64,000 nt of DNA from Phycisphaerales bacterium (GTDB lineage Bacteria > Planctomycetota > Phycisphaerae > Phycisphaerales > SM1A02). Numbering within the stretch: the first letter of the stretch is position 1; every line of letters starts with the position of its first letter. The stretch covers positions 1 through 64,000 of the forward strand of contig JABAAL010000024.1 in NCBI GenBank assembly GCA_014238785.1. Reading direction: 5' to 3'. The notes under the pieces are model-generated. The model did no database searches and was not told the origin of the DNA. It saw only the letters and a list, made by a program, of their open reading frames with translations. The translations under genes and the position numbers were made by a program. Positions 2,342 through 7,602 of this stretch are shown here, one piece after another.

Positions 2342-3811
2342 TTACACTCCGCCTAGCCGTACATAGGGTCGAAGTCCTTGCATTCCACCTTCGCGACCAA
2401 ATCCAGATTCTTTAAAACCGCCAAATGGTGAGGCAGCATCAAATTTGTTATACGTGTTACACCAGATAATTCCTGCGTCAAGTTGTTTCGCCACTTCGTA
2501 TATTTTTGAACCCTTATCGGTCCACACGCCTGCAGCTAGTCCATAGGGGGAATTATTTGCCCTTGCAATTGCCTCCTCTGGCGTCCTAAACGTCATCACC
2601 GAGAGGACCGGACCAAAAATTTCCTCTCGAGCAATTCTGTGGCTCGGTTGAACGTCCGTGAAGAAGCACGGGTTGCACCAATACCCTTTGCTTGGCAAAC
2701 GTTGCTCGTTCGCCTTGTGTAATTGTGCGCCCTCTTTTATGCCGGATGTAATGTAGCGCTCAACAGTTTCTAGTTGGCTCTGTGAATTAATCGCACCGAG
2801 GTCTGTGTTTTTATCTAAAGGATCACCAATGCGAAGCGAGCCAAGTCGTTGTGTAAGTTTGTGAATGACTTCTTCAAGGATAGATTCTTCCACAAAAAGA
2901 CGAGAGCCGGCACAACAGACGTGACCCTGATTAAAATAAATCCCAGATATTATCCCCTCAACAGCTTGGTCTATCGCGGCATCTGCAAAAATAATGTTTG
3001 CACTTTTGCCGCCCAGTTCTAGCGTAAGTTTTTTGCCTGTTCCTGCGGTTTCTCGCATGAGCAATTTGCCTACCTCTGTGGATCCCGTAAATGCAACCTT
3101 GTTCACAAGTTTGTGTTCTGCTAGAAACCTCCCAGTGTCGCCTGCTCCCGTCACAATGTTCGCCACACCATCTGGAAGTCCTACTTCTTGGAATACTTCT
3201 GCCAAGCGCAGCGCAGTGAGCGAGGTTGTTTCTGCCGGCTTGAGGACACTTGTGTTTCCACACGCAAGTGCGGGGGCTAGTTTCCACGCAGCCATCAGAA
3301 GGGGGAAGTTCCAAGGAATTATCTGTGCGCAAACGCCAACTGGGGATGGTTTGCTTCCGGGGAATGCGTACGAAAGTTTATCTGCCCAGCCTGCGTAATA
3401 AAAGAAGTGCTGTGCAACAAGTGGAATGTCAACGTCTCTGGATTCTTTGATTGGCTTGCCGCCATCCATCGTCTCAAGAATTGCAAATTCTCGTGCGCGC
3501 TCTTGAATACGCCTCGCAATTCTATATAAATATTTTGCGCGTTCCGTTCCGCTCAGCCGCGACCATTTTGGTTGGGCAGCCTTTGCAGACCGAACCGCAG
3601 CGTCGACGTCTGCCTTACCTGCACAGGCAATGTCTGCCAGTTTTTCTTCGGTGGCCGGGTTAATCGATGCAAACCAAGAACGAGATTTGGGGGAGACAAA
3701 CTTACCACCAATAAACAACTTGTTCTTTTGTTCAATTGTTATTTTTGTGCTATCGGGAGCTGGACTATAGTCCCAGCCACCAACAGTGTCTGATTGTGTT
3801 GTAATTGTCAT
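2342..3811 (-). CDS. NAD(P)-dependent aldehyde dehydrogenase
   Basis: A 489-residue protein of the aldehyde dehydrogenase superfamily that oxidises an aldehyde to the carboxylate. Key residues are visible: P-W-N-F-P with Asn168, E-L-G-G-K with the general-base Glu265, and G-H-V-C-C-A-G-S-R with the catalytic Cys at 299. It lies 3 bases downstream of deoC, whose reaction releases acetaldehyde, so acetaldehyde is the likely substrate. It is followed by a truncated ALDH gene. The pair resembles the two halves of ALDH16. Confidence 0.9.
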   Translation of the reverse strand: MTITTQSDTVGGWDYSPAPDSTKITIEQKNKLFIGGKFVSPKSRSWFASINPATEEKLADIACAGKADVDAAVRSAKAAQPKWSRLSGTERAKYLYRIARRIQERAREFAILETMDGGKPIKESRDVDIPLVAQHFFYYAGWADKLSYAFPGSKPSPVGVCAQIIPWNFPLLMAAWKLAPALACGNTSVLKPAETTSLTALRLAEVFQEVGLPDGVANIVTGAGDTGRFLAEHKLVNKVAFTGSTEVGKLLMRETAGTGKKLTLELGGKSANIIFADAAIDQAVEGIISGIYFNQGHVCCAGSRLFVEESILEEVIHKLTQRLGSLRIGDPLDKNTDLGAINSQSQLETVERYITSGIKEGAQLHKANEQRLPSKGYWCNPCFFTDVQPSHRIAREEIFGPVLSVMTFRTPEEAIARANNSPYGLAAGVWTDKGSKIYEVAKQLDAGIIWCNTYNKFDAASPFGGFKESGFGREGGMQGLRPYVRLGGV

Positions 3812-3814
3812 TCG

Positions 3815-4732
3815 TTACGCCTCGCTAAAATCATAGGTTGCCCCATACCGCCCCGTGTTTTGTTTTATTAATTGCCGTAGAACGTCGTTTGTTAAACTAG
3901 ATGCCCCAAACCTAAATAGGTGTGGGGAAAGCCAACTATCACCAAGCGTTTCTTTTACCATCACAAGGTAATGCAACGCTTGCTTTGCTGTTTTAATTCC
4001 ACCTGCAGGCTTCATGCCAATTCGTATACCCGTCTTCTCGTAATGCTCTCTAATTGCCTCAAGCATCACGAGGGTCACCGGCATTGTTGCAGATGGGCTT
4101 ACTTTTCCAGTCGAGGTTTTGATAAACACCTCGCCATCTTCAATTGGTCCCGTTGATGCTGCGGCCTGCATAGCAAGATCAGAAGCAGCGCGAACATTTT
4201 CAAGGGTCTCAAGTTCACCAGTTTCTAGAATAATTTTCAAATGAGCACTGCCACATGCAATTCGAACTTGTGCAATTTCCTCGGCGACCTCTTCAAAATA
4301 CCCTGATAAAAATGCCCCGCGGTTAATGACCATATCTATTTCATCTGCACCCGCTTTAACAGCCTCTGTCACATCATTAAGGCGAACGGCTAATGGATAT
4401 TGCCCGCTGGGAAAACCGGTTGCAACCGATGCAACCGAAACACCCGAACCCTCCAGCGCATGTTTGGCAACCTGTACCAAACTTGGATAGACGCAAACCG
4501 CAGCAACCGAAGGTAGCGGAGGATCAAGAATGCCTTCCCATGGTGCAATAGCCTTGCGGCAAAGCGAGCGCACTTTTTCGGGAGAGTCCTTTCCCTCGAG
4601 TGTCGTGAGATCAATCATGGAAAGTGCAAGGCGTAGTCCCTGTTGTTTTGAATCGGTTTTAATAGATCGCCGAGTAAAAGAAGCGGCGCGCTGTTCCACC
4701 ATCACAGTATCAACGGGTCTTCGCATGGTCAT
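3815..4732 (-). CDS. deoC: Deoxyribose-phosphate aldolase
   Basis: A 305-residue protein that cleaves 2-deoxyribose 5-phosphate to glyceraldehyde 3-phosphate and acetaldehyde in deoxynucleoside breakdown. The Schiff-base lysine is K205 in V-F-I-K-T-S-T-G, and the partner lysine is K241 in G-M-K-P-A-G-G-I. The N-terminal extension of about 35 residues makes it longer than the E. coli enzyme (259). It heads the deoC-ALDH-ALDH-like operon. A TACAAT hexamer abuts the ATG at 4732, so the in-frame ATG at 4726, 6 bases later, may be the real leaderless start. Confidence 0.92.
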   Translation of the reverse strand: MTMRRPVDTVMVEQRAASFTRRSIKTDSKQQGLRLALSMIDLTTLEGKDSPEKVRSLCRKAIAPWEGILDPPLPSVAAVCVYPSLVQVAKHALEGSGVSVASVATGFPSGQYPLAVRLNDVTEAVKAGADEIDMVINRGAFLSGYFEEVAEEIAQVRIACGSAHLKIILETGELETLENVRAASDLAMQAAASTGPIEDGEVFIKTSTGKVSPSATMPVTLVMLEAIREHYEKTGIRIGMKPAGGIKTAKQALHYLVMVKETLGDSWLSPHLFRFGASSLTNDVLRQLIKQNTGRYGATYDFSEA

Positions 4733-5617: not shown

Positions 5618-6508
5618 TTATTGTGGATTTCGCAGTTGTACGCTGCTTGTTGCACCCAAGGAGCGATATATTTCTTCTGTTGCAAAGGATTGGTTCATTG
5701 TAAAAAAGTGGATGCCACGCACATTGTGGTCTAGCAATTCGGCACATTGTTCTGCTGCCCAACTTGTGCCGATTTTACGAACAGCATCCTCATCATCTTG
5801 AAATTTATACAAGCGTTTCTGAAGTTTTGCGGGGAAATTGGCGCCTCCTGCAAGTTCTGCCATCCTTCTCATACCTGCAATGGATTGAATTGGCATGATG
5901 CCTGCAAAAATTGGTGATGTAATGCCCGCAAGCTCACAGCGCTCTACCCAGTCAAAGAATGCTGCATTGTCAAAAAAGAGTTGTGAGCAAATCCAATCAA
6001 TACCACGATCTACCTTTAGCTTAAGGTGATCCATTTGTACCAAACGATTTGGAGTTTCTGGATGACCTTCTGGAAAACCCGCAACTCCAACTCCGAACGA
6101 ATTGCCGGTACATTCGTGAATACATGTAATTAAATCTGAAGCTTGTCTAAAATCACTCTTGCTATCTCCGTCGAGCAGTCGGTCACCACGAAGAGCGAGA
6201 ATGTTATCTATTCCTGTGTCGATATACGATTGCAAAATAGTGGAAACTTCCTGTTTGCTATGGCCAACACACGTAAGGTGCGGTATTGGGTCAAGCGATG
6301 TTTTAGACGCTATGTGACAAACTAATTCGTGTGTTTTAAATCGAGTTGAACCGCCTGCACCGTAGGTAACGGAAACAAAGGAAGGCTCTAGGGCCTCAAA
6401 CTTATGCAGCCTGTCTGTGAGTCCTACCCAACCAGCCTCTGTTTTTGGTGGGAAAAACTCAAAACTAAAGACAGTTTGGTCTCGTTCTAATATTTCTCGC
6501 ATCTTCAT
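5618..6508 (-). CDS. metF: Methylenetetrahydrofolate reductase
   Basis: A 296-residue TIM-barrel flavoprotein that reduces 5,10-methylene-THF to 5-methyl-THF for methionine synthesis. Family signatures are present: F-S-F-E-F-F-P-P-K near residue 15, V-T-Y-G-A-G-G-S-T near 50, L-A-L-R-G-D near 107 and Q-L-F-F-D-N near 178. Length matches bacterial MetF. The ATG is preceded at 7 bases by TATCCT, which suggests a leaderless mRNA. Three small envelope-protein genes follow on the same strand. Confidence 0.95.
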   Translation of the reverse strand: MKMREILERDQTVFSFEFFPPKTEAGWVGLTDRLHKFEALEPSFVSVTYGAGGSTRFKTHELVCHIASKTSLDPIPHLTCVGHSKQEVSTILQSYIDTGIDNILALRGDRLLDGDSKSDFRQASDLITCIHECTGNSFGVGVAGFPEGHPETPNRLVQMDHLKLKVDRGIDWICSQLFFDNAAFFDWVERCELAGITSPIFAGIMPIQSIAGMRRMAELAGGANFPAKLQKRLYKFQDDEDAVRKIGTSWAAEQCAELLDHNVRGIHFFTMNQSFATEEIYRSLGATSSVQLRNPQ

Positions 6509-6521: not shown

Positions 6522-6590
6522 GTGTCTCGAGTAATTAAGCGACACTTTTTTATTTGTTATATTCACCATATACTTCTGTTTTATAGAGGA

Positions 6591-6824
6591 ATGCCCAAAA
6601 ATTCCAAAATCGACCGCAAGGCGATTGAGCCTTTGTCTCAGAAAACTCGAGGCACGAAAAGATGCAGAGTTAGCTTTAATTTATTCAAGCCAACTCGGCG
6701 AGGTACTCGGTCTCACGAGTGCCCAGGCTCGAGAGGATTTGCGACCTTTGGTACGTTTGGTAGACCGAGTGTTGGTTACACCATTATACCGCTATGTAAA
6801 CAACTATCGACTTTTATTGAGTAA
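6591..6824 (+). pseudogene. Stand-alone Rex-type winged-helix DNA-binding domain, frame-disrupted
   Basis: Translation in three pieces restores a Rex N-terminal domain of about 77 residues. ATG 6591 is in frame 3. From 6592 to about 6752 the homology is in frame 1 (K-I-P-K-S-T-A-R-R-L, then S-S-Q-L-G-E-V-L-G-L-T and A-R-E-D-L). From about 6755 it returns to frame 3 with F-G-T-F-G-R-P-S-V-G-Y and stops at 6824. Rex is the NADH-sensing repressor; its DNA-binding domain has this I-P-x-x-x-x-R-L and F-G-x-x-G-x-x-G-x-G-Y pattern. An extra base near 6593-6603 and a missing base near 6750-6756 explain it. The NADH-binding Rossmann domain is absent. Either a decayed gene or sequence error. Confidence 0.7.
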
Positions 6825-6840
6825 CCAAAAGCGCCCGGTG

Positions 6841-7602
6841 CTACGCCTCTGTGGGCGTTTCCTGCGGAACAGCGTTTTCACCAAACAATGCCGTGCCAAC
6901 GCGCACAATATTTGCGCCACACTCAATAGCAACTTCAAAATCGTTCGACATTCCCATAGAAAGAATGTTAAAAGCACCGCCTGAATTTTTATCGAGTTTC
7001 ATTTCTTCAAACAACTCAGAACAGCGAGTAAACACTGCTCTTGAGTCTTCGGGATTTTCGGCGATAGGCGCCATGCACATCATGCCCCGTGGTTTAACAC
7101 ACGACATTGTTTCGAGTTGTTCCAACAAATATCCAATCGCGGCTGGTGCAATTCCCGTCTTTTGCCGTTCCTTTGAAATGTTTATTTGCAACAATACTTC
7201 GATTACCTGTTTTCGTTTTTCGGCAATTTCTTGAATTTCTTCTGCCAGTCGCAAGGAGTCTAGCGTATGGATCAACCGTGTTAGAGGTAAAACGCGACGA
7301 CATTTGTTTCTTTGTAAATGACCGATGAAGTGCCAACGAATTGGATTAACTAAAGCTGGTTCACCAAGTTCTTTTCGTCGATCAGCATACTCCTCTATTT
7401 GAGCTGCCAGTTGCGTAAAGTGTTGCAATCGGTTCTCACCAAAATCAGCGTGCCCCAAATCAACAAGTTGTCGAACTTCATCAACGGATGCGTGTTTTGT
7501 CACAGCGACCATGTGGATCTTAGAAGCATCGCTACCAACTCTATCGGCTGCGTCTGCTATTCTTTGTTGTACTGCTTGGTATCGTTCCTTGATTGTTTGC
7601 AC
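6841..7602 (-). CDS. YggS/PLPBP-family pyridoxal-phosphate homeostasis protein
   Basis: A 253-residue protein of the YggS (PROSC) family, which binds pyridoxal 5'-phosphate without known catalysis and helps maintain B6 and amino-acid balance. The PLP lysine is K36 in V-A-V-T-K-H-A. Other signatures are F-G-E-N, W-H-F-I-G-H-L-Q-R-N-K, and M-G-M-S-N-D-F with A-I-x-x-G-A-N-I-V-R-V-G-T at the phosphate end. The start is GTG with AAGGAGG upstream. It follows sucD on the same strand after 42 bases. Confidence 0.92.
   Translation of the reverse strand: MQTIKERYQAVQQRIADAADRVGSDASKIHMVAVTKHASVDEVRQLVDLGHADFGENRLQHFTQLAAQIEEYADRRKELGEPALVNPIRWHFIGHLQRNKCRRVLPLTRLIHTLDSLRLAEEIQEIAEKRKQVIEVLLQINISKERQKTGIAPAAIGYLLEQLETMSCVKPRGMMCMAPIAENPEDSRAVFTRCSELFEEMKLDKNSGGAFNILSMGMSNDFEVAIECGANIVRVGTALFGENAVPQETPTEA

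Follow-up and report, generated by a model that had tools for sequence, protein, structure and literature searches.

The interval between metF and yggS in the window, the 64,000-nucleotide stretch of DNA analysed in this work, very likely holds an ordinary rex gene that became a pseudogene fairly recently, of which the broken first third extends from approximately 6583 to 6824. Rex is a well-known NAD(H)-sensing transcriptional repressor. A recent pseudogene was one of three options contemplated in the initial annotation, and it is the one supported by the loss of the start codon, an indel, a deletion, changes at invariant residues and the existence of intact syntenic orthologues.

The rex locus

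The metF-yggS interval comprises 332 bases in the window. The features of the locus are as follows:

5618-6508, minus strand: metF (methylenetetrahydrofolate reductase; PF02219, 308.6 bits), left neighbour, divergent; it also adjoins intact rex in relatives
6569-6575, plus strand: TATACTT box, probable -10 element of the old rex promoter, 7 bases 5' of the old start; identical in all five intact relatives
6583-6585, plus strand: ancestral rex start codon, today ATA (ungapped alignment with the ATG of rex in G005, G006 and G012)
6583-6735, plus strand: remnant of Rex helices 1-3 (winged-helix part) in frame 1, last residues ...SAQARE (PF06971, 40.6 bits against a cut-off of 27; own-genome search)
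6591-6593, plus strand: chance ATG in a different frame, taken as the start in the initial annotation; aligned with intact rex, it straddles ancestral codons 3-4
6736-6740, plus strand: frame break in a T run, one base short of the intact relatives (MAFFT alignment of six sequences)
6738-6824, plus strand: remnant of the Rex wing and next helix in frame 0 (FATFGTFGRPSVGY...), with TAA at its end (profile and BLAST matches; windowed identity)
6825-6840, no strand: scar of a deletion reaching as far as the end of yggS; around 400 nt of rex, coding for the NADH-binding domain, are missing, and intact relatives continue here with the remainder of their 211-aa gene
6841-7602, minus strand: yggS (PLP-binding protein; PF01168, 61.3 bits), right neighbour, convergent; it also adjoins intact rex in relatives

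According to windowed identity, homology to rex is no longer clear past approximately 6797-6815, and the frame-0 stop is located at 6822-6824. The position previously given for this stop, 6824, was correct; the stop precedes the end of the convergent yggS by 16 bases.

In another part of the window, two tandem aldehyde dehydrogenase-like ORFs (1456-2328 and 2342-3811) adjoin a deoC-like gene (3815-4732), all of them named from translations alone. The second aldehyde dehydrogenase-like ORF, in order of transcription, has just 290 residues and is possibly a truncated copy.

Identification of the Rex DNA-binding domain

The Pfam model PF06971 matches frame 1 between 6592 and 6750 (E 2.7e-10, 40.6 bits, cut-off 27), above threshold though the winged-helix domain is split across two frames, while the frame-0 ORF opening with the ATG of 6591 gives no Pfam match of its own. 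When the two frames are read in succession, the resulting sequence matches all nine NCBIfam Rex models, with a best E of 2.3e-15; its best score, 57 bits, is far under the 126 bits required of a whole Rex. These matches bear out the earlier recognition of a Rex winged helix. No open frame provided with a start codon covers the domain, given the ATA at the ancestral start and the break at 6738-6740, and the C-terminal NAD(H)-binding Rossmann and dimerisation domain of a Rex protein is absent from the locus.

With a completeness of 97%, the source genome (a metagenome-type assembly) amounts to 1.81 Mb distributed over 47 contigs, and the match at the remnant is the sole one to PF06971 in it. A search with a whole-Rex profile revealed neither a second rex nor a rex Rossmann domain elsewhere in this 97%-complete genome, so that the absence of the NADH domain that had been pointed out from the window holds both at the locus and genome-wide. 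Searching contigs with the 53-residue piece as query gave no match, and the rex-bearing relatives were recovered using an alignment of intact Rex proteins as query. Phage records yielded distant Rex-like matches, none of them tied to the metF-yggS locus.

Intact rex in related genomes, start codon and frame break

Thirteen genomes of the genus were searched, including the one containing the window (G000). A full-length Rex of 211 residues is encoded in five of them (the metagenome-assembled genomes G002, G005, G006, G011 and G012), in all cases as a single uninterrupted frame with both domains (PF06971 and PF02629) and with scores over the NCBIfam Rex cut-offs. The order metF-rex-yggS, with rex divergent from metF and convergent with yggS, is found in G002, G006, G011 and G012; in G005, rex adjoins metF and the contig then ends. 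Intact homologues of about 77 residues, as the initial annotation had envisaged, were not found in the genus; this position is occupied instead by the full-length gene. Weak PF06971 matches in G007 and G010 had no tblastn match to Rex and were not counted as rex.

The start codon and the break were placed on a MAFFT DNA alignment of six sequences against the intact rex genes of G005, G006 and G012. The window aligns with these three without gaps from the TATACTT box as far as codon 51, and the ATA at 6583-6585 corresponds to their start. Since this ATA shares its reading frame with the Rex helices and the ATG at 6591 lies in another one, the +1 shift that had been proposed to follow this ATG is not real. 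A one-base gap appears at a short T run (6738-6740), after which the wing continues in frame 0. The initial annotation was thus right in that the frame changes within the domain, although there is one real break and it lies at 6738-6740 instead of near 6752; in place of two compensating frame changes, the alignment shows the loss of the start, one indel and a large deletion.

The TATACTT box precedes the rex ATG by 6-7 bases in the five intact relatives (rex upstream regions in L005, L006, L008, L015 and L016), a spacing that suggests a leaderless rex transcript. When -10-like boxes just ahead of start codons were considered window-wide, the enrichment was too weak for any claim.

Decay of the remnant and alternative explanations

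Compared with the intact syntenic orthologues, the remnant shows three disabling changes: the start loss, the one-base indel and the deletion of around 400 nt. Constraint is also relaxed in what is left, as expected of a pseudogene. Of the 45 residues that all five intact Rex proteins of the genus share, 9 are altered in the remnant, compared with 0-3 changes in 46-49 such residues when each intact Rex was left out in turn as a control. For family-invariant residues the figures are 4 of 20 in the remnant versus 0-1 of 21-22 in the intact genes. In the solved complex of Thermotoga maritima Rex with its operator, Lys49 and Gly61 touch the DNA (PMC8836258); the remnant has Glu and Ser, respectively, at these positions, so that the set of conserved DNA contacts (Arg48, Lys49, Gly61 and Tyr64, T. 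maritima numbering) is kept at Arg48 and Tyr64 alone. The Rex dimer, the active form, is held together by the C-terminal domain (PMC8836258), which the remnant does not have.

Differences from intact rex are still concentrated at third codon positions, and therefore the gene must have been under selection for most of its history, the break being recent. The good preservation of the 5' part likewise indicates that the decay is young. Pairwise dS values were mostly saturated, making dN/dS of little use. In its winged-helix and wing sequence, and in its genomic position in the sister species, the stretch resembles a Rex repressor (PF06971 plus PF02629; NCBIfam NF003995), from which it differs in lacking a start codon and the NADH-binding/dimerisation domain, in the frame break and in the two altered DNA-contact residues. 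Several independent disabling changes, intact syntenic orthologues in sisters and repeated loss throughout the genus are all features of bacterial pseudogenes resulting from reductive evolution, and nothing notable sets the rex remnant apart from these.

Two observations could be held against a pseudogene: helices and wing are still recognisable with their codon structure well kept, as if under weak selection, and the species is represented by one metagenome assembly. The first of them would fit a functional stand-alone Rex DNA-binding domain of 77-80 residues, translated from the ATA with a -1 frameshift near 6738 and acting on Rex operators without sensing NADH. The two halves are indeed present and joined in register, and the TATACTT box is intact. 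Nevertheless, the sequence at 6733-6746 (GAGGATTTGCGACC) contains neither an X XXY YYZ heptamer nor a long homopolymer, its T run having three bases, and no relative in the genus carries a shifted or stand-alone version of the gene. Such a protein would, moreover, have changes at the equivalents of Lys49 and Gly61, would be devoid of the dimerisation domain and would require two rare events for its synthesis. We consider this possibility very improbable, and the truly shifted reading contemplated initially finds no support, with the slippery sequence absent and no shifted gene in any relative. It is slightly less probable still that the remnant is expressed through non-ATG initiation and frameshifting to give an NADH-blind competitor at the old Rex operators.

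An error of sequencing or assembly, the true gene being intact and the damage an artefact, seems about as improbable as a functional stand-alone domain. The existence of a single metagenome assembly leaves some room for it, and the break consists of a one-base difference in a T run. A missing NADH-binding domain is, however, beyond the reach of base-calling, and this domain was found nowhere else in the assembly; the flanking genes are in their normal order, the loss of the start is a substitution, and nine further substitutions affect invariant residues. The option of a sequence error in two places therefore leaves the around 400 nt of missing NADH-binding domain, the lost start and the changes at invariant residues without an account. 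As for a fortuitous resemblance arising in non-coding DNA of the metF-yggS interval, which the shortness of the gap and its lack of an intact ORF for the domain might bring to mind, it is ruled out by the profile matches (E 2.7e-10 for PF06971 in frame 1), an identity of 59-65% across approximately 72 residues and the fact that relatives carry rex at the syntenic position.

In this preferred explanation, the ancestor had a full-length rex of around 211 codons between metF and yggS. The alignment shows that in the lineage of G000 the start became ATA, a single base dropped out midway through the DNA-binding domain and the entire NADH-binding domain was deleted, in whichever order. The locus would then yield no functional Rex product, and the former Rex targets are presumably free of control by NADH/NAD+.

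Repeated loss of rex in the genus

The gap between metF and yggS is merely 86 nt in G001 and G009, and no rex remnant could be detected in the gaps of G001, G003, G007, G009 and G010. In G007 and G010, a TAG reported alongside the metF match lies outside the aligned coding part and is not a feature. The gap of G004 (L032, approximately 1332-1501) contains a scrap of the 3' end of rex, with an alignment score of 44 versus 31 for the best of 300 shuffled sequences; this is an independent loss, in which the end of rex opposite to that of G000 has been kept. In G008 the contig breaks in yggS, and this genome was not assigned with respect to rex loss. In a tree built on MetF, YggS, SucD and PurM, the rex-less genomes are dispersed, with G004 beside G011, G003 beside G012, G007 with G010, and the pair of G001 and G009 near G005; supports for some branches are only 73-78. 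Such dispersion means that rex was lost on no fewer than four occasions, probably five.

The nitrate reductase gene narG is present in G002, G003, G006, G011 and G012 among the 13 genomes, nearly the same set as rex. It is found in four of five rex-bearing genomes versus one of seven rex-less ones (two-sided Fisher test, p 0.07, with G008 left out and kinship ignored). The loss of rex may follow the loss of nitrate respiration. Perhaps switching in response to redox state brings little benefit to organisms that have also lost anaerobic respiratory genes, a connection that is suggestive only. The distribution of cytochrome bd does not track rex, and class III ribonucleotide reductase, being absent genus-wide, is uninformative in this regard. 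The genus comprises small-genome Phycisphaerae that, judging from isolate names, are marine.

The stretch should be annotated as a pseudogene, and not as a new small protein; on its own it is one more pseudogene. It does catch one of several parallel losses of rex within one genus in which rex-bearing sisters are extant, and these losses, modest as their value may be, allow asking what renders an NADH-sensing regulator dispensable.
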